From the NCBI RefSeq assembly GCF_009371985.2, contig NZ_VIKU02000007.1, positions 1-64,000 on the forward strand: a DNA stretch of 64,000 nucleotides. Direction: 5' to 3'. The notes below the pieces were generated by a model. The model worked only from the letters and a program-made list of their open reading frames with translations, did no database searches and was not told the DNA's origin. Source of the stretch: Pelagihabitans pacificus. GTDB taxonomy: Bacteria > Bacteroidota > Bacteroidia > Flavobacteriales > Flavobacteriaceae. Of the stretch, positions 1-17,362 are shown piece by piece. Position numbers and translations under genes: made by a program. The first letter of the stretch is position 1. Every line of letters begins with the position of its first letter.

Positions 1-3000
1 GTGCTGCCCGAATCCTGAACCTCCCCAGAACCGAAGTCCTGGTCCGAAGGAGCAAAGGAAGACACCGTACGGCCCGTGCCGCTCACCTGAAGGAGCGAGC
101 CCTGTGGCGGTGCAGTCACATTTATGGTCAATAAATCCGTACAATTAAGGCTTGAGTCGGAAACCACAATCTCCACTTCCGCTGCCGAGGTCCATGGGTT
201 GCCATTTACTTCGGAAAGTGCCCGAAGGCGTACGTAGCGACCTTGTTTCGGAGTAAAGCTTACCGTTTTTAGGCTGCTATTTGCACCCCAAGTGCCTGAA
301 GAGACTGCGGAGCCCCAATCCGTGTCGTTTTCGCTCACGTATATCTCGTAAGAAGCTATCGTACCGTTCAAAACACCATCTTGCCGCGGTAGATAGGTCA
401 ATCCTTCCACTAAAACACTAGTGCCCAGATCAAACTGTATCTCATGGGGTAGTTGATCAATACCGTTCTCCCATTTCGTGTGCCAAAAAGTAGCATCAGA
501 CCCATCGATGGCCAACTCCGGATCATGGCGGGGGTTTGAACTATCCGCAAAATTTATGGTGGTTATCAATGGAGGAAGGGGTGTTGTCAACGTGTAGACA
601 CCTTCTTGTGTCGTCGTTATATTCTCAATTTCAAATCCGGTTGCCGCACTTCCCGGTAGGGTATTCCCATCGGGATCGGATACAGAAAAATCGATTCCCG
701 GAATCGAGATCGCCAAATTTATACCATCACCTTCATTCACTGTTATTTCCTGTTCACCAGAACCCTCTACTCCGTTTACTGTATATATTGGTATTACATC
801 AACACACGAAACAGAACTGCGTACATTGATGGTGAGGTATTTGGTACATCCTTCATCGGAGGTCAATGCATATACCCCGGCATCGGCAGTGGTAACACTT
901 CCTAAGCTATAGTTATCCCCCACTTGCGAACCATTCGGAAGGGTAATTGTAACGCCAAGACCATTCGGTAAAATGCTCAACATCACATCGTCTCCCTCCT
1001 CGACCGTAATCTCGGAAAGGCCACTCTGCCATACCCCATTGATACGATATTCCTGAATAACCTCGTTCTGACAGCCACCGCTCAATCTAAGGTCGATTGT
1101 GGCTATACAACCACTGCTGGTAGTAAGGGCGTAAAGGCCCGTATTGTTCTGTGCGATCAGACCGTTTCCACCATTTATGAAGGTGTCTATTTTGTAGGCC
1201 GATGTGTCTTCAAAATTTGGAAAATCAACAACGGAACTGAATCTATTCTGATCTCTGAAAGGTAAGGTCACGAAGTATTCCTCCCCCGAGGGAACATTGG
1301 CCCGAATATAAACCTCTTGGCCTTCTTCCGCATTGACAATATTTCCACTTTGCCAAGTACCCCCCGAACCTATCCTATACTCAGCGGTAATCGTATTTGG
1401 AGGACAAACAACCACCTCCGGGTTTCCTTGTTGTTTTCCAATTTCATAAAAAGAAGTGATTTCGCTCGCTGATAGGGCTTTGTTATATACCCTTAGCTCA
1501 TCTATCCTACCATCCAGTTCATCGGTAATGCCACTTAGACTCTGTGGCTGACGGTCGTCATAAAACCCCGAGGTCGTAAAGGAAGACTGATATTGTTGGC
1601 TCGTTTCCAACGTAATCTCCCCTGTAGCACTATCAGTACATATCTCTATCCCATTGGCAAATAGTCGCCCTACCTGACCATTAAAGGTGGCCGCGACATG
1701 TACCCACTTGCTAGCGGGTGAATATCCGACATAGCAGTTCACGGAGCTCCCTGTCGAGGTCGGGAACTCCAACTTGTACAAACTATTGTGGAAACCAAAA
1801 AAAAGTTTTGGATAGTCATGGGCCAAAATAGCCACGTTTTTTTCAATTTCATCCCGATAGACCCAGGCCATCACTGTCATCTCGTCCTTGATCGATGCCA
1901 TCGAAGCGGAATAAGGTACTTCTACGATGCTATTACTTTCGAACTCTTTCCCGTCCATTTCCATGGCACTGCCAAATAACCCATCGGCAGTCCAGTAGCT
2001 CTGAGTCACAGGGATGGGATTTTTATCATTGTCTCGCTCGACCATGGTGGCATCGTTACCAAAGTTGGAACTGTCCGCCACATCGATTCCCGAGCCTTCA
2101 TCGAATTTCAAATTCAATACCAAATTAGGTGAGTTGCCAATGGAGATAGCGGAACCTACCTTCACGTGTTCCGCAACGCTGGGTACTCCATTAGTATCAA
2201 GGGCAAAAAGCATATAATATCCAGGGGGTAACAACTCTCTATTAGGAACCTCAACATTATAAGTTCCCTGGTTTGAGGTGAATGATAGTGGAATCCTTCG
2301 CTGCTCATTATTGGTACTGTGAGTAGCAGATGAAAGCCTTATAAAGCTGAATTCCGTAATTCCAGGACTGCCCGTAACCGGCATGGTGCTATTGTAATCT
2401 ACATTATCGGGCGCTTGTATCGTGGGTCTGGCGGCTAAACCACCGCCTGGACCAAAAAGATAAGGAGGGCTATAGATTTCGGCGTCGAGATGGTTATCAC
2501 AGCCCGGGGAATCGCCACAAAGACCTCCCCCACCTACGAAAACCCGACCATCCGGAAGTAAAATACTTACACTGTGATAGGTCCTAGGTATTTGCATAGG
2601 TGCCGTGTCGCTCCAGCTATTGGTAACTGGATCAAAGATTTCACCAACAAATCGCGCACCGAGGTCGCTAAATACCTCTGCAGTAGATAGACCGCCGGTT
2701 ACCAGAACCTTTCCGTCAGGGAGGACAACACTATTGTGCATGGTGCGTGCCCTTTGAAATCCAGATACTTCGGTCACTAGCGGAGTCTCGTTATTGATAT
2801 CTATAATGAATGTCTTGTCACTGGCTGGGGTTCCGCTACTATAGGTCCGGGATCCTCCCACTTTCAACAACTTGCCAATATCATACATTACCGAAGTGCC
2901 CTTCATAGAGTAGACATCACCGGTACGAGCTCCAAGGTTTTGCACGGTCGGATTATTTATGTCGCTCACATCGAGCCAGTGCATGTCGGTACCAGGACCG

Positions 3001-3686
3001 GCATGAAATACTTTTCCGTTGGGAGCCGCCCAAAGCCAGGCATGGTTATCCCCGCGATAAAACCGCTGGGAAGGGTCTGGTTCATCCAAGATATTGTCAT
3101 TACCATCCATCAGCAACTCCCCTTGAATGGACGGAAGTGCTATCCATCCAGTCTCTGAGCTGTAAATCTCGGCATGTTTTCCCCCAATACCACCGCTCCA
3201 GGATCCGCCCAACGTAAACACAGCTCCCGTAGCTAACGTAACATTACCCTGATAGCCTCTGGGCACAATCATATCATCGGCCCTTGTCCAGATTCCGGTG
3301 TTGGGGTCATACAGGCTAACACGTTCGCTCGAGCTTCCGCCGGCAGCCAATATTCTTCCGTCCGCAAGATTATTTATCCCCGGACAAAACATATCGTGAT
3401 TGGTCTGAGTCGCCGTTCTTGGCAGGACCGTGCCCTCGGTACCCAAAGACGGATCGAAGATTTGGGTAAATGTAAAACCATCACCGCCCCCAAAATCATC
3501 GTGGTATTTTGAAGACCAAGTGATGATTCTACCATCTGGAAGATTGGCTACCGCCACAGGTACGATATCGAATGGGATTACGTTGCCCCATGACCCCACT
3601 TGCGAGGGATCTTGGGCATTTCCGTTGAAAATTGAAAAGACTAAAAAAGTTAATAAGGCAATGAAATAGGAGTAGTTGTTTCCCAT
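1..3686 (-). CDS. Galactose oxidase-like secreted multidomain protein (3' end cut by window edge)
   Basis: The frame starts at an ATG at 3686 and runs open through base 1, so at least 1228 residues are visible and the C-terminus is missing. Residues 1-25 form a signal peptide ending N-A-Q. Residues about 30-440 are a kelch-type propeller, followed by the galactose oxidase C-terminal (DUF1929) domain to about 520. Every residue that defines the copper radical site of fungal galactose oxidase has a counterpart: Cys101 in HDMFCPG and Tyr145 in RGYQ (the thioether pair), the stacking Trp217 in DNHAW, Tyr370-His371 in RTYHS, and His456 in THSTNNEQRRIPL. After that come a LamG/concanavalin-like region (about 525-750), Ig-like repeats (about 760-1030) and an F5/8 type C (discoidin) domain (about 1040-1172). 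Known members of this family oxidise primary alcohols of galactosides to aldehydes with release of peroxide. The native substrate here is unknown; the lectin-like modules suggest a surface polysaccharide. A type IX sorting tail may lie beyond the edge. Confidence 0.88.
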   Translation of the reverse strand, partial: MGNNYSYFIALLTFLVFSIFNGNAQDPSQVGSWGNVIPFDIVPVAVANLPDGRIITWSSKYHDDFGGGDGFTFTQIFDPSLGTEGTVLPRTATQTNHDMFCPGINNLADGRILAAGGSSSERVSLYDPNTGIWTRADDMIVPRGYQGNVTLATGAVFTLGGSWSGGIGGKHAEIYSSETGWIALPSIQGELLMDGNDNILDEPDPSQRFYRGDNHAWLWAAPNGKVFHAGPGTDMHWLDVSDINNPTVQNLGARTGDVYSMKGTSVMYDIGKLLKVGGSRTYSSGTPASDKTFIIDINNETPLVTEVSGFQRARTMHNSVVLPDGKVLVTGGLSTAEVFSDLGARFVGEIFDPVTNSWSDTAPMQIPRTYHSVSILLPDGRVFVGGGGLCGDSPGCDNHLDAEIYSPPYLFGPGGGLAARPTIQAPDNVDYNSTMPVTGSPGITEFSFIRLSSATHSTNNEQRRIPLSFTSNQGTYNVEVPNRELLPPGYYMLFALDTNGVPSVAEHVKVGSAISIGNSPNLVLNLKFDEGSGIDVADSSNFGNDATMVERDNDKNPIPVTQSYWTADGLFGSAMEMDGKEFESNSIVEVPYSASMASIKDEMTVMAWVYRDEIEKNVAILAHDYPKLFFGFHNSLYKLEFPTSTGSSVNCYVGYSPASKWVHVAATFNGQVGRLFANGIEICTDSATGEITLETSQQYQSSFTTSGFYDDRQPQSLSGITDELDGRIDELRVYNKALSASEITSFYEIGKQQGNPEVVVCPPNTITAEYRIGSGGTWQSGNIVNAEEGQEVYIRANVPSGEEYFVTLPFRDQNRFSSVVDFPNFEDTSAYKIDTFINGGNGLIAQNNTGLYALTTSSGCIATIDLRLSGGCQNEVIQEYRINGVWQSGLSEITVEEGDDVMLSILPNGLGVTITLPNGSQVGDNYSLGSVTTADAGVYALTSDEGCTKYLTINVRSSVSCVDVIPIYTVNGVEGSGEQEITVNEGDGINLAISIPGIDFSVSDPDGNTLPGSAATGFEIENITTTQEGVYTLTTPLPPLITTINFADSSNPRHDPELAIDGSDATFWHTKWENGIDQLPHEIQFDLGTSVLVEGLTYLPRQDGVLNGTIASYEIYVSENDTDWGSAVSSGTWGANSSLKTVSFTPKQGRYVRLRALSEVNGNPWTSAAEVEIVVSDSSLNCTDLLTINVTAPPQGSLLQVSGTGRTVSSFAPSDQDFGSGEVQDSGS

Positions 3687-3905: not shown

Positions 3906-4460
3906 TTGAGCCGAAAAAGAGAACATATTGATGCATTGCTACAAGAATGTATTAACGGGAAACAAAGTGCCCAACTTGAAGTTTACAATCGCTATTACAA
4001 GGCCATGTTCAATACCGCCTTCCGAATTGTAAAAAATAGTGCTGAAGCTGAGGATGTGATGCAAGAATCGTTTTTAAACGCGTTTACGAAACTGCACACA
4101 TTTAAAGGAGAGGTCACCTTCGGATCCTGGTTGAAACGAATTGTAGTGAACAACAGTATCTATCATTACCGGAAGCAACAGAAAAAAAATGAAGTTGCGC
4201 TGGAAAATATACTATACAAGGTCGAAGATAATGATGAAGTTGTTTCAGATCATGAGTTGACCGAACTGAAGGCTCAAAAAGTGATGGAAACCATGCGCTG
4301 TTTAAAAGACAATTACAGAATTTCTTTGACCTTACATTTAATCGAAGGATATGACTATGAAGAAATAAGTACTATAATGAATATCAGTTATGCCAATTGC
4401 AGGACTACCATTTCAAGAGCGAAGGAGAGTTTGAGAAAAAAATTAATAAATGCCTACTAA
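3906..4460 (+). CDS. ECF-family RNA polymerase sigma factor
   Basis: A 184-residue sigma-70 family protein of extracytoplasmic-function size. Region 2 spans about residues 25-90 (YNRYYKAMFN, then AEDVMQESFLNAF, the core-binding and -10 recognition helices). Region 4 spans about 125-178 and ends in a helix-turn-helix (EEISTIMNISYANCRTTISRAKE). It would direct RNA polymerase to a small envelope-related regulon. The start chosen is a TTG at 3906, because no in-frame ATG precedes region 2; an upstream ATT is also possible. Its stop codon overlaps the start of the next gene by one base (TAATG), which indicates translational coupling to the anti-sigma-like partner. It heads a four-gene operon whose last two members encode secreted repeat proteins. 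Confidence 0.9.
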   Translation: MSRKREHIDALLQECINGKQSAQLEVYNRYYKAMFNTAFRIVKNSAEAEDVMQESFLNAFTKLHTFKGEVTFGSWLKRIVVNNSIYHYRKQQKKNEVALENILYKVEDNDEVVSDHELTELKAQKVMETMRCLKDNYRISLTLHLIEGYDYEEISTIMNISYANCRTTISRAKESLRKKLINAY

Positions 4461-5020
4461 TGGAAAAAGAAAATTTAGATAATCTGTTTGAAAGGTTGAA
4501 AGGTTCTTTCGACATCGAAGAGCCAACCCAAGGACACCAAGACCGGTTTTTGGAGAAACTTAATGCCTCCAAGGGCGTAACAAGTATCTATAAAAAAAGA
4601 AATTCATGGTGGAAACCCTTCTCCATAGCGGCCTCTGTTGCCATTCTAATTGGTATAGGTTTAGGCGTTTTAAACACCAGGCCTACCCTTGAAGAGCAAG
4701 TTGCGGAGATTTCACCGGAAGTGTCCCAAAGCCATTTTTACTTTGCTAGTCTCATTGAAGAACAAGTGAAGTTGCTGGAAAGTGAAAGCTCACCAGAAAC
4801 CCAGCGCATTGTGGATGACACCATGGCGCAGCTTAACAAATTGAAAGACGATTACAATCAATTGGAGCAAGACCTTGTCAACGGTGGCAACAGTAAATTG
4901 ATCTTAAGTGCGATGATTACTAATTTCCAAACAAGAATCGATCTTTTGCAAGATGTGCTCGACAAAATCGAAACCATTAAAAATTTTAAAAATTACGAAG
5001 ATGAAGACTATACTATTTAA
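4460..5020 (+). CDS. Membrane anti-sigma-like protein
   Basis: A 186-residue protein with an acidic N-terminal cytoplasmic segment (about 1-50), one transmembrane helix (about 57-73, after the basic stretch KKRNSWWKPF) and a predominantly helical, charged extracytoplasmic part with coiled-coil character (about 95-180). The topology and the position directly after an ECF sigma gene fit a sigma-sequestering anti-sigma factor. No zinc-binding HxxxCxxC motif of the ZAS type is present, so the sigma-binding mode would differ. The ATG overlaps the sigma stop codon. An in-frame upstream ATG at 4397 lies inside the sigma gene and is not credible. Its own 3' end overlaps the next gene by 20 bases. The function is inferred from context. 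Confidence 0.7.
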   Translation: MEKENLDNLFERLKGSFDIEEPTQGHQDRFLEKLNASKGVTSIYKKRNSWWKPFSIAASVAILIGIGLGVLNTRPTLEEQVAEISPEVSQSHFYFASLIEEQVKLLESESSPETQRIVDDTMAQLNKLKDDYNQLEQDLVNGGNSKLILSAMITNFQTRIDLLQDVLDKIETIKNFKNYEDEDYTI

Positions 5021-6086
5021 ATATGCGACTATACTTTTCTTGGTCTGCCCAGTAGTGCTTTTGGCACATAACGGCAAACCGAAAGGAAGGTACACCAAAG
5101 AAAAAACCATCAAAAAGGAATTTAATGTCAACTCCGATGCCTTACTAAAAGTAAGTAATAGCTATGGTAATCTGAACATCACCTCCTGGAACGAGAATCG
5201 AATATTGATAGAAGTACATATCAAGACCAATGGGAATAATGAGGAGAAGGTGCAAAAAAAGTTGGACCAAATTACCGTTGATTTCGACGGCAGTAACAGT
5301 ATGGTTTCTGCCAAAACCGTATTTAACAAAGGTAAAAGTAGTTGGGGATGGGGCAACAACAACAAGGTGAATATGCAGATCAACTATACCATTAAGTTGC
5401 CTGTAAAGAACAGTGTAAATCTTAATAACGACTACGGTAGTATCGCGTTGGACCGGATCGACGGTCATGCTAAAATCAACTGTGATTACGGACGATTGGA
5501 CATCGGTGAACTCCGAGGAAGAAATAACCAACTCAATTTTGATTACACCTCGAATTCCACTATCGGCTACATGAACAGTGGTAAAATTTCGGCCGATTAT
5601 TCCGGATTTACCATCGAAAAAGCCGGGGATTTGATAATCAACGCCGACTATACCAACTCAAAGGTGGAAGAAATGGGCAACTTGGAATACTCCTGTGATT
5701 ATGGGAAGATTGAAATTGATGAAGTGAAGAACGTTAACGGAAATGGGGACTATATAAGCGTGCGTTTGGGAACTATTCATGGCAACACGGATATAACGGC
5801 TGATTACGGCTCCATAAAAATTGCTAAATTAGCCTCAGATGCCGGAAATGTTTTCATCAGAACAGATTATACAGGGGTAAAAATAGGCTATGACGATGGA
5901 TATAATTTCGACTTCGAAATCTCGACGTCCTATGCGGGGGTCAGCGGTAAGGAAGATTTTGAGATGAACATTAGCAACGTTAAATCGACCAGTAAATATT
6001 ATAAGGGATATCGAGGATCGGCCAATAGTGGCAACTTAATAACCATAACCAGCGATTATGGGGGTATTACTTTTTATAAAAATTAA
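5001..6086 (+). CDS. Secreted DUF4097-like beta-repeat protein with Asp-Tyr ladder
   Basis: A 361-residue protein with an N-terminal signal peptide (about 1-22, ending L-L-A-H). From residue 40 it follows the DUF4097 'putative adhesin' pattern, which is thought to form a parallel beta solenoid. An Asp-Tyr pair recurs at residues 144, 162, 181, 199, 216, 233, 250, 268 and 289, and again at 352, usually followed by Gly, Thr or Ser. This 17-21-residue period matches one solenoid turn and would stack a column of Asp and Tyr on one face. The start is the ATG at 5001 inside the end of the anti-sigma-like gene (20-base overlap); an in-frame ATG at 4953 lacks a signal peptide. It may be a cell-surface output or stress sensor of the sigma/anti-sigma pair. 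Its molecular role is not known. Confidence 0.75.
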   Translation: MKTILFKYATILFLVCPVVLLAHNGKPKGRYTKEKTIKKEFNVNSDALLKVSNSYGNLNITSWNENRILIEVHIKTNGNNEEKVQKKLDQITVDFDGSNSMVSAKTVFNKGKSSWGWGNNNKVNMQINYTIKLPVKNSVNLNNDYGSIALDRIDGHAKINCDYGRLDIGELRGRNNQLNFDYTSNSTIGYMNSGKISADYSGFTIEKAGDLIINADYTNSKVEEMGNLEYSCDYGKIEIDEVKNVNGNGDYISVRLGTIHGNTDITADYGSIKIAKLASDAGNVFIRTDYTGVKIGYDDGYNFDFEISTSYAGVSGKEDFEMNISNVKSTSKYYKGYRGSANSGNLITITSDYGGITFYKN

Positions 6087-6134
6087 ATCATCATCAATCA
6101 AACCTTGTATGAACGCAGGGTAAAAACTAAAATT

Positions 6135-6860
6135 ATGAAACAATTATTGAGCCTTAGTTTAGTAGTAGTATTAACCACCTCATGTACCGCACAATGGGGA
6201 AAGAGAATTAAAGGAAACGGTAATTCGGTAAGTATCGAACGAAGCGTTGGGGACTATGAGGGTGTGTCGGTATCGGGTTGGTTCGATGTAGACTTAGTGG
6301 ATGGAAACGAGGGAGAACTCACCTTGGAAGGGGAAGAGAATCTTTTGGAATACATCATTACGGAAGTGAGAAATGGAAAGTTGGTCATTAAGGTAGAAAA
6401 AGGCTATAATTTAAAGCCTTCCAATTGGAATGAAGGTATTCGGGTCACCGTACCGGTAGAATCTATAAACAGTGTTGCTTTGTCGGGATCCGGGGATATT
6501 GTAGGCAAAAAGACCCTGAAAGCAACTTCTTTTAGGACCTCGATGTCCGGATCCGGTGATATTACACTTGATATCGAATCGGACAATATGACCGCAAGTA
6601 TGTCGGGATCCGGTGATATAAACTTAAGCGGAACCACTGGAACATTTGAAGCCACAATTTCCGGTTCCGGCGATATAAAAGCCTATGACCTAGAGGCAGA
6701 TGTGGTAGATGCCACCGTATCAGGTTCGGCCGATATCAAGGTGACCGCCAAAGAGATGCTCAAGGCAAGGGTATCGGGCTCCGGAGATATCAGTTATCGG
6801 GGAAATCCTAAAAAACTAGATACAAAAACTTCCGGATCGGGGGATATCTCAAAAGGCTAA
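6135..6860 (+). CDS. DUF2807 (head GIN) lipoprotein with SGSGDI repeats
   Basis: A 241-residue protein starting at the ATG at 6135 (an in-frame start at 6105 gives an N-terminus without a signal). The signal sequence ends in the lipobox TTSC, so Cys17 would be lipidated. The mature part matches the auto-transporter-adhesin-like DUF2807 domain: an N-terminal strand-rich region with WFDVDL, then the hallmark S-G-S-G-D-I turn repeated at residues 117, 138, 157, 176, 196 (SGSADI), 214 and 233. The repeats imply a regular beta solenoid with a Ser/Gly/Asp edge. It is the last gene of the sigma-factor operon, 48 bases after the DUF4097 gene and just before a terminator. Two different solenoid proteins under one ECF sigma factor suggest a shared envelope function; no ligand is known. 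Confidence 0.85.
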   Translation: MKQLLSLSLVVVLTTSCTAQWGKRIKGNGNSVSIERSVGDYEGVSVSGWFDVDLVDGNEGELTLEGEENLLEYIITEVRNGKLVIKVEKGYNLKPSNWNEGIRVTVPVESINSVALSGSGDIVGKKTLKATSFRTSMSGSGDITLDIESDNMTASMSGSGDINLSGTTGTFEATISGSGDIKAYDLEADVVDATVSGSADIKVTAKEMLKARVSGSGDISYRGNPKKLDTKTSGSGDISKG

Positions 6861-9257: not shown

Positions 9258-11657
9258 TTATTTCCCTACGATATGTAGTTCGGTAAAATTTTTGTCCACT
9301 ATGAGCGAGTTGTTACCGTTAATTTTCAAATCTTTCAAAGCCACCTTTTCATTGTCAATTTCTATGCCACTAATCTTGAAGGGAAGTCCGTGAAAATTGA
9401 ATTTGAATGATTCATAGGGTGTGATAAACGCACCGTCTTTGTGCTGTTGAATAATCAATTCCTTTGGTTTCCCTATCAGTTTGAACTTTCGAAGGCTATA
9501 CTTTCCTTGGGTATAATCGAACCCTTCCTGGCTATCTTCGTATACCGAGGACAATTCTACTCCCTCTTTGTAGTAAAGGTCTAAAACCAACTCTTCGATT
9601 TGCACCTCTCCCACGTACTGTTGAACAGGATATTTTGGAATTATCGCTCCTTCCTTGATGAACAAGGGCATTTTATCCAAATCCGCAGCTACCCATTTTT
9701 CCTTCCCGCCAACGATAACCTCCTCGGTCCAGAAGTCGTACCATTTCCCTCTCGGAATGTACATGCGTCTCCCCTGGGCGTTCGGTTCCTGTACCGGGCA
9801 CACCAATATATGGTCTCCAAAGATAAACTCATCGGTTCTGAAATGGGTTTGGCTATCCTCTTGGTCGTAATACACCAATGACTGCAGCATCGGAATTCCA
9901 TGTGTGGTATACTGATAGAACATCGTATACAGATATGGAAGCAATTGATACCTCAATTCAATGAACTTTCGAACAATATCGGTTACCTCGGTACCGAACG
10001 ACCACGGTTCTTGGTCTCCATGATCTCCACTGGAATGCACCCTGCAAAATGGATGGAAAACCCCTAACTGTACCCAGCGCGCAAATAGTTCCCCGTTGGG
10101 CTGTTCGGCAAAACCACCGATGTCCGAGCCCACAAACGAATAGCCGCTCATACACATACGCTGCATTTGCACGTTGGCGATCCACAAATGTTCCCATGTC
10201 GCGACATTGTCGCCAGTCCACGTGGAGGAATATCGTTGGGTACCGGCAAAAGCGGCCCTGGTAATTACAAAGGGCCTTTTAGGGTAGACGTATTTCTTAA
10301 CACCTTCATAGGTGGCACGTACCATCTGCATGCCGTACACATTATGTGCCTTGCGGTGCGTACAAGGGTGGCCATCAAAATTATGCCGCGTATCCAAAGG
10401 AGCGGTTTTTGAAGGCACCTCCATCACCGCAGGTTCGTTCATATCGTTCCAAACGGCATCGACTCCCATCTCGGCCATGAATTCCTTGTACAATTCCGCC
10501 CACCATGCCCTTACGTCAGGGTTCGTAAAATCGGGGAAGTTGCATTCTCCTGGCCATACCTTTCCATGCATATAGGGGCCATCTCCGCGCCTACAGAAAT
10601 AGCCTTTCTCCATGGCTTCTTGATATACCCAATAATCCTTGTCTATCTTGATTCCCGGATCGATCATCACGACGGTCTTAAAGCCATCTTCCTTTAACTC
10701 CTTCATCATGCGTTTTGGCTCGGGAAAATGATCTTTATCCCAGGTAAAGCAACGAAATCCGTCCATATAATCGATATCCAAATAGATGGCGTCACAAGGG
10801 ATACGAAGTTCCCTGAACTGTTTTGCTATTTCCTTAACCCTACTTTCCGGGAAATAACTCCATTTTGATTGATGGTATCCTAGCGCCCACAATGGTGGTA
10901 GCTCGGGCGTTCCCGTTAAATCGGTATACAGGCGAACGACCTTTGAAATATCGGGACCAAAAAAGAAATAATAGTTCATCTCGCCACCATCTGCCCAAAA
11001 GCTGGTTACATTTCGCCGTTCATGGGCAAAATCGAAATAGGAACGAAACGTATTGTCAAAGAAGATACCATAGGCCTTATTTTGGTGAAGTCCTATATAA
11101 AATGGAATAGCCTTGTACAAGGGGTCTTGGTCCTTACCATAGGCGTATTGGTCGGTAACCCAGTTGTTGACCCTTTTGCCTTTTAGGTTCAAATGGGTGG
11201 CTTTATCGCCCATACCGTAAAAGCTCTCGCCCGTCTGGGTTATCTTGCTCATCTTAACGGTATTTCCACCATACTCGTAGTTCTCTTCCCAGTGAAAACC
11301 TATTTCGTCTTCGTTGAAGATATTACCCTCAAGGTCCGATATCTGGATTCGTAAGCTGGCCTTATCGACCAATATTTTCACTCGGGTAGTCTCAATATAA
11401 TACTCATTATCGGTCTCTGTGACCTCCAAGCGATTGTAACCCCTACTGGCATCTTCGCTTACCGCGTATGAGAAGTCGGGTTCGAAGGTATGACCGGTAG
11501 CGTATCGAAAACGGATTGTGCTATTACGCATAACCGTAATTTGGAGAATGACGCCGTTTTCCGTGGTAAAATAAAGTTTGTCGGTGTCTTGCTTAAAATC
11601 TATTATTTGGTTGGGGTATAGATTCCCTTTGTATTCCAGTTCAGTATTCGTGATCAT
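9258..11657 (-). CDS. GH31 alpha-glucosidase family protein, cytoplasmic
   Basis: A 799-residue glycoside hydrolase family 31 enzyme with an N-terminal beta-sandwich (about 1-245), a catalytic (beta/alpha)8 barrel (about 250-600) and a DUF5110-like C-terminal sheet region. The nucleophile is Asp405 in WNDMNEP and the acid/base is Asp483 in TGDN. There is no signal peptide, so it should act in the cytoplasm on alpha-glucosides or malto-oligosaccharide ends. It is the fourth gene after glgE, maltokinase and glgB on the same strand (101 bases after glgB), which argues for a role in trimming the alpha-glucan made by those enzymes. Alpha-xylosidase activity also occurs in GH31 and cannot be excluded. 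Confidence 0.93.
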   Translation of the reverse strand: MITNTELEYKGNLYPNQIIDFKQDTDKLYFTTENGVILQITVMRNSTIRFRYATGHTFEPDFSYAVSEDASRGYNRLEVTETDNEYYIETTRVKILVDKASLRIQISDLEGNIFNEDEIGFHWEENYEYGGNTVKMSKITQTGESFYGMGDKATHLNLKGKRVNNWVTDQYAYGKDQDPLYKAIPFYIGLHQNKAYGIFFDNTFRSYFDFAHERRNVTSFWADGGEMNYYFFFGPDISKVVRLYTDLTGTPELPPLWALGYHQSKWSYFPESRVKEIAKQFRELRIPCDAIYLDIDYMDGFRCFTWDKDHFPEPKRMMKELKEDGFKTVVMIDPGIKIDKDYWVYQEAMEKGYFCRRGDGPYMHGKVWPGECNFPDFTNPDVRAWWAELYKEFMAEMGVDAVWNDMNEPAVMEVPSKTAPLDTRHNFDGHPCTHRKAHNVYGMQMVRATYEGVKKYVYPKRPFVITRAAFAGTQRYSSTWTGDNVATWEHLWIANVQMQRMCMSGYSFVGSDIGGFAEQPNGELFARWVQLGVFHPFCRVHSSGDHGDQEPWSFGTEVTDIVRKFIELRYQLLPYLYTMFYQYTTHGIPMLQSLVYYDQEDSQTHFRTDEFIFGDHILVCPVQEPNAQGRRMYIPRGKWYDFWTEEVIVGGKEKWVAADLDKMPLFIKEGAIIPKYPVQQYVGEVQIEELVLDLYYKEGVELSSVYEDSQEGFDYTQGKYSLRKFKLIGKPKELIIQQHKDGAFITPYESFKFNFHGLPFKISGIEIDNEKVALKDLKINGNNSLIVDKNFTELHIVGK

Positions 11658-11758
11658 AACAATGTATCAATTGGGAAACGCAAAAAAAGCACTTTAAAAC
11701 CTAAAAATGAAAAGATATCATGTGGAATTGACGACTATTACATTTTCTTCGACCAACG

Positions 11759-13657
11759 CTACTCAAAAATGACAATACTCAAAGGCGGCAGCGTCATTTC
11801 GACCGATTTTTTATGACCATGCCAAGGAGTATTTTGCAATTTTGAAATATCGGATGCCATTCCAGACCCTCCGTACTTCTTGTCATCGCTATTGAAGATT
11901 TCCTTCGGCTGTCCCGATTTTTTAGGGACACCTATTCGATATTTCTCGCGGGGGGTCGGAGTGAGATTCAGGGCTATATAGATATCGTTTTTGGGGTCGT
12001 TCCCTTTTCGGATATAGGTCAGCACGCAGTTCTCGTGGTCCCCGTAGTCGATCCATTGGAAGCCTTCCGGGCTGAACTGTCTTTCATACAAGGCTGGGTA
12101 GTTTTTGTACAGCTTGTTCAACTCCTTGATGGTCTCCTGTATGCCCGCATGTCCTTCATACTGGGTAAGATGCCAGTCCAGACTTTCTTGGAAATTCCAT
12201 TCGGAAGTCTGCCCGAATTCTCCACCCATAAAAATGAGATTGGTGCCGGGATGCGTGAACATATAGCCGTACAGCAGTCGCAGATTGGCAAATCGCTGCC
12301 ATTCATCACCGGGCATTCGATACACCAATGATTGTTTGCCATAGACGACCTCATCGTGCGAAAACGGAAGCATAAAGTTCTCGGTAAAAGCATAGGTCAT
12401 ACTAAAGGTGAGGTCATTTTGATGGTATTTGCGATATACGGGGTCTTTTTTGAAATATTCCAAGGTATCGTGCATCCAACCCATCATCCATTTCATACCA
12501 AAACCCAGTCCTCCTAAATTCACGGGTTTGGAAACCCCGGTAAACGCGGTCGATTCTTCGGCGATGGTCTGTACATCAGGGAAATTTCCATAGACAGTTT
12601 CGTTCAATTCCCGAATAAAGCTCATCGCTTCCAGATTTTCATTGTTCCCGTACATATTCGGCTCCCATTCCCCTTCCTCCCTGGAGTAATCCAAGTACAG
12701 CATAGAAGCTACCGCATCGACCCTTAGGGCATCGGCATGATAGTGATCCAACCAGAATAGCGCATTGCTAATCAGGAACGCCCGAACCTCATTTCTGCCG
12801 TAGTTGAAAATGAGGCTCTTCCAATCAGGGTGATAGCCCCTTCGCCTGTCGGGATGTTCATAGAGGTGTGATCCATCAAAGAATCCAAGTCCGTGGGCAT
12901 CTTCCGGAAAATGCGAGGGTACCCAGTCCAAGATGACCCCGATGTTGTTCTGGTGTAGCTTGTCGACCAACAATTTAAAACCTTCCGGTTCGCCAAATCG
13001 CGATGTGGGAGCAAAATACCCCGTGAGTTGGTACCCCCATGAGGGATCGTACGGATATTCCATAACAGGCATAAACTCTACGTGGGTGAATCCCATCTCC
13101 TTTACATAGTTCACCAAATCGACCGCTAGCTCGTGATAGGATAAGAATTCGTTTCCCTCCTTCCGTTTCCAGGAACCTAGATGCACTTCATAAACCGAGA
13201 AAGGGGCGTCCAAGGCATTATTCGCCTTTCGGTTTTCCATCCATTTTTTATCCTTCCATCTATACGTCCCGTCCCACACGATCGATGCCGTATGCGGGGG
13301 TTTTTCGCAATATCGGGCAAACGGGTCGGCCTTTTCGGTGGCAACACCGTGGTTATGGGAACGGATATAATATTTGTAGACTTCACCTTTGCCTACATTG
13401 GGGATAAATCCCTCCCAAATGCCACTCTCGTCCCAGCGCACATTCAACGGGTGTTCGTGATCCAACCAGTAGTTAAAGTCACCGATTACCGAAACGGACT
13501 TCGCGGTCGGGGCCCAAACGGCAAAATAGGTTCCTTCCACCCCATCGACCTCCATCGGATGTGACCCCAATTTTTCGTAGAGTTTAAAATGCTTCCCGGA
13601 TTTAAAGAGGTTTATATCAAAGTCAGTAAATAAACTGTGTGGTATTACTTTACCCAT
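11759..13657 (-). CDS. glgB: 1,4-alpha-glucan branching enzyme
   Basis: A 632-residue GH13 branching enzyme of normal length. It has an N-terminal CBM48 domain (about 25-125, with GTYFAVWAPTAKSVSVIGDFN) and then the barrel with YEVHLGSWKR and the region I-IV motifs: DWVPSHF, ALRVDAVASM (nucleophile Asp314), TIAEEST (acid/base Glu367) and FSHDEV (His434-Asp435). It transfers short alpha-1,4 chains to make alpha-1,6 branches in glycogen. It lies between maltokinase (130 bases upstream) and GH31, which matches the GlgE route in which GlgE elongates and GlgB branches. Confidence 0.97.
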   Translation of the reverse strand: MGKVIPHSLFTDFDINLFKSGKHFKLYEKLGSHPMEVDGVEGTYFAVWAPTAKSVSVIGDFNYWLDHEHPLNVRWDESGIWEGFIPNVGKGEVYKYYIRSHNHGVATEKADPFARYCEKPPHTASIVWDGTYRWKDKKWMENRKANNALDAPFSVYEVHLGSWKRKEGNEFLSYHELAVDLVNYVKEMGFTHVEFMPVMEYPYDPSWGYQLTGYFAPTSRFGEPEGFKLLVDKLHQNNIGVILDWVPSHFPEDAHGLGFFDGSHLYEHPDRRRGYHPDWKSLIFNYGRNEVRAFLISNALFWLDHYHADALRVDAVASMLYLDYSREEGEWEPNMYGNNENLEAMSFIRELNETVYGNFPDVQTIAEESTAFTGVSKPVNLGGLGFGMKWMMGWMHDTLEYFKKDPVYRKYHQNDLTFSMTYAFTENFMLPFSHDEVVYGKQSLVYRMPGDEWQRFANLRLLYGYMFTHPGTNLIFMGGEFGQTSEWNFQESLDWHLTQYEGHAGIQETIKELNKLYKNYPALYERQFSPEGFQWIDYGDHENCVLTYIRKGNDPKNDIYIALNLTPTPREKYRIGVPKKSGQPKEIFNSDDKKYGGSGMASDISKLQNTPWHGHKKSVEMTLPPLSIVIFE

Positions 13658-13787
13658 ATTTTTTATTTTTTTCTAGTTGATGCATTTTATCGGTATTATG
13701 TCTTCGTGGTCTACAGGGCTTTCGACCCGTACTGGTATTCGTCCTATACAGCCCTAGTTGCCATACCAACACTGGTCGGTGGAGCGG

Positions 13788-15422
13788 TTACCACTTGTCA
13801 TTGATAATCCCCAAAATACCTTCGAGCGGAATGACCGCCCAACTGGGTCTCGAGTTCATTTCATAGCCGAGTTCGTATACGGCCTTTTCGAGCATACAGT
13901 ACTTTAAAATGAAAATACGTTCCTGCCGATACCCGATGTTCAGGTTATTGGCCTGAATAATGGTTACATAGGACTCCAAGAAAACCCCGATAAAAAATTT
14001 ATACAAGATTTCACCGGCCTTAAAGAGATTCTCCTGGGAATACGGGTATTTTTCCCCATTATTGAAAATAGTCGCATAGATCGCATAGTGGAAAGATCTG
14101 AAAATCCCGGCTACGTCTTTTAAGGGAGGATGCTTTACCTTTCGATCGCGAATGGTACTCTCGGGTTCTCCCTCAAAATCCAGCAGATAAAAATCATCGC
14201 CTTGCACTAAAATCTGCCCCAAGTGATAATCGCCATGGATCCGTATACGCTCACCTTTGAGCTTTGTCCAATCGAATTGTACAAAACGTCTTCGAATTTC
14301 GTTTTTTCGTTCCAAAAATTCCTTGACCAATTCTGCCGCCCGCCCTTCCAATTTGTGTAAGTTGTTCTCCACACTGTTCAAGCGATTTTGAAATTGGTAC
14401 AACAACCGATTCTTCAACCATACCTCATAATCACTGTTAAAATGTTTTGGTGTAAATGCAGTATCCTCGAACTCGGAGCCCAGGGCTACGTGCATTTCAG
14501 CGGTACGCCTCGCCATGATCTGTAACCTTAAAAAGATACTAAGTCCGGCCCAATCGATGATTTCCGGAGGAACATCCTTTATCTTCAAACGTTCGAACAA
14601 TTCGGTCGACGGTAATCGATCAACATTAATTTTTTTATACTCCAAATTACTAAAGACCTTATCGACTTCTTTTAACATAAAGTCCCAGGCGTCGCCTTCG
14701 TTGGGTACCAGTTTTTGTAAGAGCGCAATGGTAATGTTATCATTGTCCTTGTCGAGGATACTGATGCTTCCCAAATAGGCGGGAGTATTCTTAAAACCCT
14801 TTTTCTCAGATAGGAACTGGCTCATTTCGAAGTCAGGGTTTTTGTCGGGGTAGATTCTTCGGAAAAACTTGATGACCGAGGAGTCATTATAAATAATCGA
14901 AGTGTTGCTTTGTTCCATCCCCATAAATCTCGAAGACTCATAGGCAGTGTCGGTAAAATAGGAGCTCTTATGATAACGTACGGGCGTTAAATCGTTTGGT
15001 ACGGAAGTCATGATGCGTTCAAATACCAACTTTCTAAAGGCTTCCAGATTTATGGCATCAATGATATAACCGGCCTGTCCACTGATGGTCAGGGGTAGTA
15101 TTCTTTCTTCTTTGGCAAAACTCCCGTCAGTTACAAAAGCGATGGGAAGAAAGTAATGTTGATAAAAGGCTTCATTAAAATTCACCTCTAGCAATAATCC
15201 ATAATACACCTCACCATGTTGCTGAATTCTGAAGTATTGGTGAAGTTCTATGTACTTTAAACTGCTCGATTTACCCCCATACCAACGCTGCCTCAATATG
15301 TAGTCTTCCAACACGTCTGATAAAAACACCTTGATAAACGCTGGATCGTCCAACAGATTCTCCCAGTTCGAATCGAAGACATATGGTGGGCGTAGTAGTT
15401 TTTCAGACTTTTTTTTAGACAT
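13788..15422 (-). CDS. mak: Maltokinase
   Basis: A 544-residue protein with the maltokinase N-terminal cap (about 20-130, including RQRWYGGKS) and a kinase fold related to aminoglycoside phosphotransferases. The catalytic loop is HGDYHLGQ (His396-Asp398) and the metal-binding motif is LLDFEGEP (Asp415), both specific for maltokinases (Pep2). It makes maltose-1-phosphate from maltose and ATP. It starts 2 bases after the glgE stop codon, so the two are surely cotranscribed, and its product is the GlgE substrate. In many bacteria a trehalose synthase (TreS) is fused or adjacent; this protein has no TreS domain. It is somewhat longer than actinobacterial enzymes. Confidence 0.92.
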   Translation of the reverse strand: MSKKKSEKLLRPPYVFDSNWENLLDDPAFIKVFLSDVLEDYILRQRWYGGKSSSLKYIELHQYFRIQQHGEVYYGLLLEVNFNEAFYQHYFLPIAFVTDGSFAKEERILPLTISGQAGYIIDAINLEAFRKLVFERIMTSVPNDLTPVRYHKSSYFTDTAYESSRFMGMEQSNTSIIYNDSSVIKFFRRIYPDKNPDFEMSQFLSEKKGFKNTPAYLGSISILDKDNDNITIALLQKLVPNEGDAWDFMLKEVDKVFSNLEYKKINVDRLPSTELFERLKIKDVPPEIIDWAGLSIFLRLQIMARRTAEMHVALGSEFEDTAFTPKHFNSDYEVWLKNRLLYQFQNRLNSVENNLHKLEGRAAELVKEFLERKNEIRRRFVQFDWTKLKGERIRIHGDYHLGQILVQGDDFYLLDFEGEPESTIRDRKVKHPPLKDVAGIFRSFHYAIYATIFNNGEKYPYSQENLFKAGEILYKFFIGVFLESYVTIIQANNLNIGYRQERIFILKYCMLEKAVYELGYEMNSRPSWAVIPLEGILGIINDKW

Positions 15423-15424
15423 CT

Positions 15425-17362
15425 CTATTTCCTAATATGGAACAGGTGAAAGGGAAGATTGGGACTTAATTCCACGTAGTTCCATTCACTGTTCCAAATG
15501 TAGCTATTATTACTGATCATATCGAACAATTGAACCGCCTCCCCATGATGTATTCCCAATTGGGACATTGGCAACTGAACATGGCCTATTTGCGTATGGT
15601 GTGGGTCAAGGCTAATGACCAATAAGGTCTCATCGGTTCGGTCATCGCTCCATTTATAAAAGGCAATCAGGTTTTCATTTTCAACGGCACAGAATTGAAT
15701 ATTGTTCGTTTGCTGCAGCGAAGCATGTTCTTTTCGTACCGCATTTATTTGGGAAATGAGATACGTTAGTTTGTTCTCGGCACTCCAGTCCCAATGTCGT
15801 ATTTCATATTTCTCCGAGTTCAAGTACTCTTCCTTTCCGGGCATGGCATCGGTCACCATGTATTCGAACACTGGGCCATAAATACCCAAATTACCACTTA
15901 AGGTGGCCGCCAGTGCGTAGCGTATCAAGTGCATGGCATCATTGGCTCCTTGAAGGTGGTACGGATTAATATCAGGTGTATTCGGCCAAAAATTCGGCCG
16001 AAAGTATTCTTTCATCTCCGACTGGGTCAACTCGACCATATACTCTATCAACTCGTGTTTCCTTACCCGCCAGGTGAAGTAGGTGTACGATTGCGAAAAG
16101 CCTTGTTTGGCCAATTGTTGCATTACCTTCGGACGCGAAAAAGCCTCTGCCAAAAAGAGCACGTCGGGATGTTCTTTCTTCACCTGCATCATCAACCAGT
16201 TCCAAAAGTAATAGGGCTTGGTATGCGGGTTATCTACCCGAAATATGCGTACGCCGCAGTGTACCCAATGCAGGGTGATGCTCAAAAGTTCGGCCCACAG
16301 CTCTTTATAGGCTTTGGATTCGAAATAGAAGTTAACGATGTCCTGGTATTTCTTCGGCGGGTTTTCCGCATACTGGATGGTTCCATCGGGTCTTTGCCGG
16401 AACCATTCAGGATGTTCGGTGATGTACGGATGGTCGGGTGCCGCTTGAAATGCGAGGTCCATCGCGACTTCAATACCCATTTCCTTTGCCTGCCCGACCA
16501 AGGCCTTGAAGTCTTTCTCTGTACCTAATTCAGGATGAACGGCCTTATGCCCCCCATACCTGGAACCTATCGCCCATGGCACTCCCGAATCTCCCTCTTG
16601 GGCTTCGACCGCATTATTCTTTCCCTTTCGGTTTACCTCCCCTATGGGATGAATAGGTGGAAAATAGAGCACGTCGAAGCCCATATCGGCAATTCTCGGA
16701 AGCAGCCTGTTACAATCCCTAAAAGTCCCGTGCTTGTGTGGTTCTGGTGAAGCAGACCTTGGAAAAAACTCATACCATGTGCTAAAGTTGGCCTTTTTTC
16801 TATCTACATATACTTGGAGCAGATGGCTTTTGTTGGCTAAACTACGTTGTGGAAAATCAAGGAACAATCGATGCAGCTTTTCAGAGGTGGCCTCTTGTAC
16901 TGCCGCCTCGTATTTATCTTCGTCTTGAAAGAGCCGTATCGTTTTTTTGAGGTAAGGGTCCATTTTTTTGGATGCCTTTTTCAGCAGAAACTTCACATAC
17001 TGCACCCCATCCAATAATTCGCTCCTTACATACTGTCCATCTTTTAGTTTGGCCTCGATACCATGCTGCCAATTCAGGGCATGGTCTACCCAGCCACGTA
17101 TCTGATACTCGTAAAATCCCTGTTTGGTCACTGAGAATGAGGCATTGAAGACATCTTGGCCCAAATGCGCCATCCTGATTGTTTGTGGCTCCCTGTCATT
17201 TTCATGTTTGAAAAGTATCTCAGCCTCTACTACATCGTGTCCGTCGGCCAATACATCGGCATAGACCGTAATCTTTTCCCCAACGACCCGCTTAATAAAA
17301 AAAGCCCCTCCCTGGAGCTGTGGTGACACATTTTCGATGACCACCCGTTGCTGTCTCAGCAT
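15425..17362 (-). CDS. glgE: Alpha-1,4-glucan:maltose-1-phosphate maltosyltransferase
   Basis: A 645-residue GH13 subfamily 3 enzyme. The N-terminal beta-sandwich domain (about 1-110) opens with RVVIENVSPQLQGG, a family signature. The barrel contains FPPIHPIGEVNRKGKNN, the nucleophile Asp377 in FRVDNPHTKP and the acid/base Glu406 in FLAEAFSRPK. GlgE uses maltose-1-phosphate to extend linear alpha-1,4-glucan in the cytoplasm. It is the first gene of a minus-strand run glgE-mak-glgB-GH31. About 200 bases separate its start from the divergent collagen-like lipoprotein gene, so its promoter should lie there, although no clear TAnnTTTG element was found on this strand. Confidence 0.96.
   Translation of the reverse strand: MLRQQRVVIENVSPQLQGGAFFIKRVVGEKITVYADVLADGHDVVEAEILFKHENDREPQTIRMAHLGQDVFNASFSVTKQGFYEYQIRGWVDHALNWQHGIEAKLKDGQYVRSELLDGVQYVKFLLKKASKKMDPYLKKTIRLFQDEDKYEAAVQEATSEKLHRLFLDFPQRSLANKSHLLQVYVDRKKANFSTWYEFFPRSASPEPHKHGTFRDCNRLLPRIADMGFDVLYFPPIHPIGEVNRKGKNNAVEAQEGDSGVPWAIGSRYGGHKAVHPELGTEKDFKALVGQAKEMGIEVAMDLAFQAAPDHPYITEHPEWFRQRPDGTIQYAENPPKKYQDIVNFYFESKAYKELWAELLSITLHWVHCGVRIFRVDNPHTKPYYFWNWLMMQVKKEHPDVLFLAEAFSRPKVMQQLAKQGFSQSYTYFTWRVRKHELIEYMVELTQSEMKEYFRPNFWPNTPDINPYHLQGANDAMHLIRYALAATLSGNLGIYGPVFEYMVTDAMPGKEEYLNSEKYEIRHWDWSAENKLTYLISQINAVRKEHASLQQTNNIQFCAVENENLIAFYKWSDDRTDETLLVISLDPHHTQIGHVQLPMSQLGIHHGEAVQLFDMISNNSYIWNSEWNYVELSPNLPFHLFHIRK

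Follow-up and report, generated by a model that had tools for sequence, protein, structure and literature searches.

Known galactose oxidases and the gene under study

Knowledge of bacterial galactose-oxidase-like genes was called very limited in 2013 (PMC3543389). Among the described enzymes, the galactose oxidase of Pseudoarthrobacter siccitolerans (structures 9g43 and 9g8h) and GaoA of Fusarium graminearum (1gof, 1k3i), a member of subfamily 2 of the copper radical oxidase family AA5 (AA5_2), provide the comparison for the gene reported here. This gene lies in Pelagihabitans pacificus, at the start of the stretch of 64,000 nucleotides that was analysed and is called the window below (contig NZ_VIKU02000007.1, positions 1 to 64,000). 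It occupies window positions 3..3686 on the minus strand and consists of an uninterrupted frame of 1228 residues (1-1228) encoding a galactose-oxidase-family protein. Base 1 of the window is base 1 of its contig, C20, in a genome of 4.56 Mb and 22 contigs, and the frame is open there, its 3' end being cut by the contig end. What is new beyond the earlier note on this stretch is the linkage of the gene's relatives to capsule export.

The P. siccitolerans enzyme, which is likewise bacterial, has an equivalent catalytic module and a discoidin domain, and its Cys, Tyr, Trp, Arg and His positions are shared with the window protein. Its discoidin domain is N-terminal, however, whereas that of the window protein is on the C-terminal side, behind a LamG domain and repeats and ahead of a probable type IX tail. 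The discoidin domain of GaoA is also N-terminal; GaoA has the six active-site residues in common with the window protein but Q406 where the latter has Ser283. According to PMC3620520, characterised AA5_2 enzymes have CBM13 and CBM32 modules at the N-terminus. Compared with such enzymes, the window protein has another domain order, with LamG, repeats, a discoidin domain towards the C-terminus and a probable sorting tail, and other genomic partners.

Other bacterial systems are less close. GlxA of Streptomyces (4unm, 5lxz) is a copper radical oxidase that partners the glycan synthase CslA, according to PMC11022532; it is membrane-anchored beside CslA, whereas the window protein probably ends in a type IX tail and its gene showed no CslA-like neighbour. 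FbfB of Stigmatella aurantiaca, likened here by description only, is galactose-oxidase-like and required for fruiting bodies, and a glycosyltransferase gene adjoins its gene (PMC3543389). In certain Burkholderia, galactose-oxidase genes lie beside sco, and the maturation of GlxA requires Sco, as described in PMC4736821; the flavobacterial loci examined differ in giving no SCO match with the one query used.

Active site and fold

All parts of the gene given here are on the minus strand. A Sec signal peptide-like N-terminus, judged by eye (residues 1-24; 3615..3686), is followed by the catalytic module (residues 28-510; 2157..3605), in which Pfam found kelch motifs and the galactose-oxidase-like early-set domain (420-510). 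The early-set family PF09118 gave two matches above the cut-off in the window genome and none in 14 control genomes, and the genome carries two AA5 copies, the window gene and a paralogue on contig C2.

When the window protein was aligned with Fusarium galactose oxidase 1gof, 210 of 469 aligned residues were identical. Cys101 (3384..3386) corresponds to the thioether partner Cys228, Tyr145 (3252..3254) to the radical Tyr272, and Tyr370-His371 (2574..2579) and His456 (2319..2321) to the copper ligands Tyr495, His496 and His581. These five residues had been named in the earlier note and proved to be invariant in 34/34 flavobacterial catalytic domains and in 14/14 other rows, the latter being bacterial relatives and two PDB chains. 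The same note took Trp217 for the second-shell tryptophan that separates galactose oxidase from glyoxal oxidase. Trp217 instead aligned with Trp336 of 1gof, and the stacking tryptophan Trp290 corresponds to Trp163 (3198..3200), within the motif GGSWSGG. Since Trp163 and Trp217 are both present and invariant in 34/34 rows, the conclusion that this tryptophan is retained survives. It was kept in 8 of the 14 other rows; rows L084-L087 and L123 are distant relatives without it and were used as an outgroup only.

Arg211 (3054..3056) corresponds to Arg330, a galactose contact according to PMC11267884. The Trp290/Arg330 pair of galactose 6-oxidases is thus represented by Trp163 and Arg211 in all 34 flavobacterial rows, where C101, Y145, W163, R211, W217, F339, Y370, H371 and H456 are all invariant. 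The pocket positions F194, Q326, Y329, R330 and F464 of 1gof are kept in the window protein; across the 34 rows, F194 is Phe in 28, Y329 is Tyr in 30 and Q326 is Gln in 15.

A search of solved chains gave 9g43 as the best match (505 bits, E 4.8e-150), followed by Fusarium chains at up to 447 bits, the aryl-alcohol oxidase CgrAAO at 357 (6ryx) and 353 (6ryv) and the alcohol oxidase CgrAlcOx (5c86) at 300; GlxA reached 110 and glyoxal oxidase 9n3u 45.5. An AlphaFold2 model of the catalytic module, built from an 18-row alignment, had a mean predicted local distance difference test score (pLDDT) of 87.8 and a predicted template modelling score (pTM) of 0.91. With this model Foldseek placed 9g43 first (46% identity, 1.9 Å over 487 columns), bearing out the galactose-oxidase fold; 1gof followed with 40% at 2.3 Å, GlxA had 20% identity, and glyoxal oxidase 21% at 4.6 Å. 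Judged by superposition of the model, the six active-site residues should converge, and because the root-mean-square deviation from galactose oxidases is low, a model in which Cys and Tyr lie apart is unlikely.

The Cys-Tyr pair, axial Tyr and two His that mark AA5, on a kelch propeller with an early-set domain, were thus recovered by alignment, domains and fold, and membership in the galactose oxidase family is close to certain. Within AA5, the scores point to subfamily 2 (GaoA 447 and CgrAAO 357 bits against 45 for glyoxal oxidase and 110 for GlxA). The AA5_2 label is kept provisional, since bacterial AA5 may belong to neither of the two named subfamilies, according to PMC11267884. Glyoxal oxidase (AA5 subfamily 1) was rejected on its 45.5 bits to 9n3u and its distance by structure, and a GlxA equivalog was rejected at 151.9 bits to NCBIfam NF052501, whose cut-off is 800. 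The assignment of the window protein as a galactose oxidase is supported by sequence, model and tree. It is very likely an active copper radical oxidase, and a galactoside is its probable substrate.

Linkage of relatives to capsule export

AA5 genes of the window type are rare: they were found in 16 of 397 Flavobacteriaceae genomes, representing 12 of 237 genera, as 26 hits, one of which (G083; G, C and L numbers are our handles for genomes, contigs and loci) covers only part of the domain because the contig ends within it. The genome searches considered no more than 3 or 4 candidates in each genome, and copy numbers may therefore be underestimated. Two main kinds of neighbourhood were seen, a capsule-export cluster and a site beside an operon for an extracytoplasmic function (ECF) sigma factor, called the sigma site below. 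The capsule type contains WbpM-like, Wza and Wzc genes and often DegT and CpsB/CapC, defined by the Pfam families of the window genome's own cluster, to which we take these short names to apply.

Fourteen of the 26 hits, in 10 of the 16 genomes, lay within 10 kb of a Wzc gene, and the paralogue in the window genome was among them. Random placement would give 0.33 linked hits, and 10 of 16 genomes were reached in none of 200,000 simulations, in which genes were placed independently of one another and shared ancestry was ignored. By manual count, 11 of the 26 hits are at a sigma or Lon site, and one (G052) is elsewhere. The AA5 gene directly follows Wzc in G001, G184, G143 and G293; in most remaining cases it is found at the opposite flank of the cluster. 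Among the literature matches listed, consisting of titles and abstract starts with few subscription journals covered, no description of a linkage between flavobacterial AA5 genes and capsule genes was seen.

In the genus of the window, a catalytic match was present in at least 7 of 10 genomes, and an eighth (G004) had only N-terminal fragments at contig ends. Beyond the linkage sample, G009 has a capsule-linked copy, and linked N-terminal fragments occur at contig ends in G003 and G004. In G005 a sigma-site AA5 copy has capsule-type sugar-nucleotide genes directly downstream. No capsule-linked copy was seen in G008, whose capsule contig stops beside WbpM.

In G001 (L047:1065-12901), tandem AA5 genes of 1729 and 2139 residues stand between Wzc and CpsB/CapC, and AA5 pairs also flank the capsule cluster in G184, G143 and G293. 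A 'PL1' label for the gene beside the paralogue was not upheld, Pfam giving only a Big_9 domain.

Distribution and phylogeny

An order-wide sample had AA5 in 4 of 395 genomes, all four already in the Flavobacteriaceae set, and so gave no independent replication. A phylum sample had it in 5 of 395 genomes, three of which (G558, G574, G642) carry distant forms without the Trp. Named relatives with AA5 are Croceitalea, Winogradskyella, Gelidibacter and Maribacter, together with uncultured records; the culturable Winogradskyella epiphytica and Gelidibacter mesophilus are among them.

In the single tree, of 48 rows with no GlxA or glyoxal oxidase row among them, the 34 flavobacterial rows formed one clade (100/98) beside a group holding 9g8h and fungal 6ryv. 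The window gene grouped with three other sigma-site copies (99/92) and then with G052 (100/100). Capsule-linked copies stand elsewhere within the flavobacterial clade, and given the starred branches the site label must have changed at least twice.

Missing C-terminus and probable type IX secretion

The earlier note had proposed looking for a type IX sorting signal in the missing C-terminus. A type IX sorting domain was found above the cut-off in 5/5 full-length relatives with Pfam and in 4/4 with NCBIfam; none is present in the window protein, whose frame stops early at the contig end. In G235, G389 and G197 the AA5 gene stands between the sigma operon and Lon; the window genome has its Lon gene close to the end of contig C12. 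An open-ended frame of 149 residues within the final 450 bases of C12 points to Lon and carries a sorting domain at 37.8 bits (cut-off 27), and a homologous fragment was found at the corresponding contig end in G007. By synteny this fragment is the probable missing tail of the window gene; no exact overlap of at least 15 bases was found between the ends of C20 and C12. Two matches to SprA_N above the cut-off, within one frame of 2423 residues, identify an SprA homologue of the type IX machinery in the genome. At the safest, the window protein is a galactose-oxidase-family enzyme with an intact sequence over the part covered by the contig, and its secretion through the type IX system is very probable.

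The region before the sorting domain on C12 (L129:10995-11444) has two further copies in a frame of 911 residues on C1 (G000:C1:1705092-1705898) and several copies in G230. The assembly may have broken between C20 and C12 because parts of the tail region recur elsewhere in the genome, on C1.

Genes beside Wzc in loci without AA5

We inspected 23 capsule loci without AA5; 6 belong to genomes that carry AA5 at another locus, and 17 to members of a 100-genome sample that showed no AA5. The gene adjacent to Wzc encoded a giant protein with a glucose/sorbosone dehydrogenase (GSDH) domain in 6 of the 23, three assigned by Pfam and three by similarity, and a giant kelch, malectin or PKD protein in a further three. 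Neither kind was seen beside Wzc in the other 14, among which L113 has a contig end at that point and L109 has no gene labelled Wzc. A sorting domain was found below the cut-off in two of three scanned GSDH proteins and not at all in the third at E up to 1e-5, which makes type IX export less certain for them than for the AA5 proteins. A GSDH protein also adjoins AA5 at the sigma site in G009, with fragments in like order in G003 and G008, and GSDH proteins adjoin AA5 in Winogradskyella and Gelidibacter. The parallel between AA5 and GSDH at the position next to Wzc is imperfect, in that AA5 mostly lies on the opposite flank outside G001, G184, G143 and G293.

The six GSDH giants (L093, L094, L096, L097, L100, L101) have about 1900-2060 residues, and malectin, CBM6 and PKD domains occur in the three that were scanned.

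Galactose-oxidase genes in other bacteria

A tblastn search against plasmids gave 37 records. Eight loci were examined with flanks of 9-10 kb, and six of these were from Burkholderiales, where an SCO homologue was present in 6/6 and a Wzc-like kinase in 3/6. Neither was found in the flanks of the Streptomyces and Sinorhizobium plasmid loci. On the Burkholderiales plasmids L117, L118 and L122, galactose-oxidase genes lie near genes for both an SCO chaperone and a Wzc-like tyrosine autokinase.

Proposed function and alternatives

We propose that the window protein would be a galactose 6-oxidase of family AA5, secreted and displayed at the cell surface. Once exported by the Sec route, it would take up a single copper ion in its propeller and generate the thioether radical cofactor from Cys101 and Tyr145. 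With this cofactor the enzyme would turn the C6 hydroxyl of accessible galactose or N-acetylgalactosamine into an aldehyde and convert O2 to hydrogen peroxide (H2O2). Its type IX sorting tail would direct it to the surface, and there the LamG and discoidin modules would keep it bound to a glycan. The most likely substrate would be the strain's own exopolysaccharide or capsule, and the aldehydes could cross-link the matrix. To this whole chain, a surface galactose 6-oxidase acting on its own exopolysaccharide, we give a probability of about 0.42. Copper loading, activity, galactose preference, a self-glycan substrate and cross-linking are what we infer from the comparisons above. The self-glycan role, by analogy with relatives, has somewhat less than an even chance. 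A capsule role would have to be carried over to the window copy, because it is the paralogue in its own genome, and not the window gene, that carries the capsule linkage.

Several points weigh against this proposal. The window copy is at the sigma site and was not seen beside capsule genes, and its group in the tree, four sigma-site rows and then G052, contains no capsule-linked copy. Twelve of the 26 hits are not near Wzc, the 10 kb limit behind the linkage counts was set after the pattern had been seen, and the counts are not independent because the genomes share ancestry. We know of no galactose-containing capsule in this strain. An SCO copper chaperone was not found with one query in the flavobacterial loci examined, unlike in Burkholderiales. 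The position of Q406 in 1gof is Ser283 in the window protein and never Gln in the 34 flavobacterial rows, and substrate preference may differ for this reason; some AA5 enzymes with the Trp/Arg pair are not galactose-selective, according to PMC11267884.

The earlier note had suggested either algal galactans or self-surface glycans as the substrate. Self-surface glycans gain from the gene context of relatives, and algal galactans gain nothing from the context seen. Many glycan-binding enzymes have discoidin and LamG modules, and these would suit an oxidase that acts on external agar, porphyran or carrageenan for attachment or degradation. The genome has three GH16 genes above the cut-off, of unclassified type in a family that covers agarases and laminarinases, and agarose can be modified by fungal galactose oxidase (PMC9914589). 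Among the ten neighbour genes up to window position 17362, however, Pfam identified none for glycan uptake or of agarase type, with no match at all for three of them, and the opposite side, reached through C12, begins with Lon and a cytidylate-kinase-like gene. Because the relatives are linked to capsule export, the strain's own glycan is favoured over an algal galactan, and we consider action on external galactans unlikely.

The AA5 mechanism yields H2O2, and the use of the enzyme could be chemical, in antagonism of competitors or feeding of a peroxidase, with the glycan of little matter; the Streptomyces peroxidase DtpA works with GlxA (PMC4736821). This would leave the capsule linkage unexplained, and no peroxidase turned up beside the window gene, though no dedicated search was made, so that we rate it as decidedly unlikely. 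An AA5_2-type alcohol or aryl-alcohol oxidase with little galactose activity would agree with the scores of CgrAAO and CgrAlcOx and with the non-Gln residue at the Q406 position throughout the flavobacterial rows, and AstAAO prefers aryl alcohols in spite of having the Trp (PMC11267884). The closest solved enzymes are nevertheless galactose oxidases, W163, R211 and F339 do not vary in 34/34 rows, and such an oxidase appears no more probable to us than the peroxide-producing one. That the protein is a non-catalytic adhesin retaining an old enzyme core is very improbable. Long repeat-rich surface proteins of like build without AA5 do adjoin Wzc in some relatives, but catalytic residues invariant in 34/34 rows would be unexpected in a dead core, and 6 of the 23 AA5-less capsule loci have at that position a GSDH protein, from another oxidoreductase family.

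A wider extension of the proposed self-glycan oxidation is in our view doubtful. A giant secreted oxidoreductase beside Wzc, AA5 or GSDH, would oxidise the cell's own exported glycan and thereby cure or cross-link the matrix; galactose oxidases would have been recruited more than once, in Flavobacteriaceae and in Burkholderiales, with GlxA as a third and different case, and the window copy would contribute to the same coat from another site. Linkage to capsule export offers a direct, testable answer to the question of what bacterial galactose oxidases are for, namely the cell's own polysaccharide. If it is true, enzymatic C6 oxidation would be a bacterial way of finishing exported glycans and could be of use for making aldehyde-bearing, cross-linkable polysaccharides.

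C-terminal domains and neighbouring genes

The C-terminal half of the window protein contains a LamG-like domain (residues 589-743; 1458..1922), a repeat region (residues about 760-1040; 567..1409) and an F5/8C discoidin domain (residues 1049-1171; 174..542), all on the minus strand. LamG and the C-terminal placement of the discoidin domain, as given in the earlier note, were confirmed by Pfam; the Ig-like repeats of that note gave no Pfam match in the window protein at E up to 0.01. Residues about 842-1036 resemble repeats of other long proteins in the genus, and the relative L044 has weak Ig-family matches, the best just above the cut-off and the rest below. The discoidin domain was closest, among the matches listed, to domain 1 of Fusarium galactose oxidase (106 bits), with sialidase chains at 76 bits.

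A divergent operon-like group on the plus strand (3906..6860) is conserved beside sigma-site AA5 genes in relatives. It consists of an ECF sigma factor (3906-4460), a small protein without Pfam match (4397-5020), a protein for which Pfam likewise gave no match, its 'DUF4097' label being by eye only (4953-6086), and a DUF2807 protein (6105-6860). Lon is also at the sigma site in several genomes. Further along, window positions 9258-17362 encode a GH31 glycosidase, a GH13 branching-enzyme-like protein, a protein without Pfam match and a GlgE-like maltosyltransferase, which looks like an alpha-glucan metabolism group conserved beside the sigma site in relatives.

The Rfam scan of the window gave no match at the gathering score, and no match was found in the phage records searched. 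The G+C content of the window gene was 47.9% compared with 43.7% for the window, and that of the C2 paralogue was 46.0% compared with 42.5% for its surroundings.

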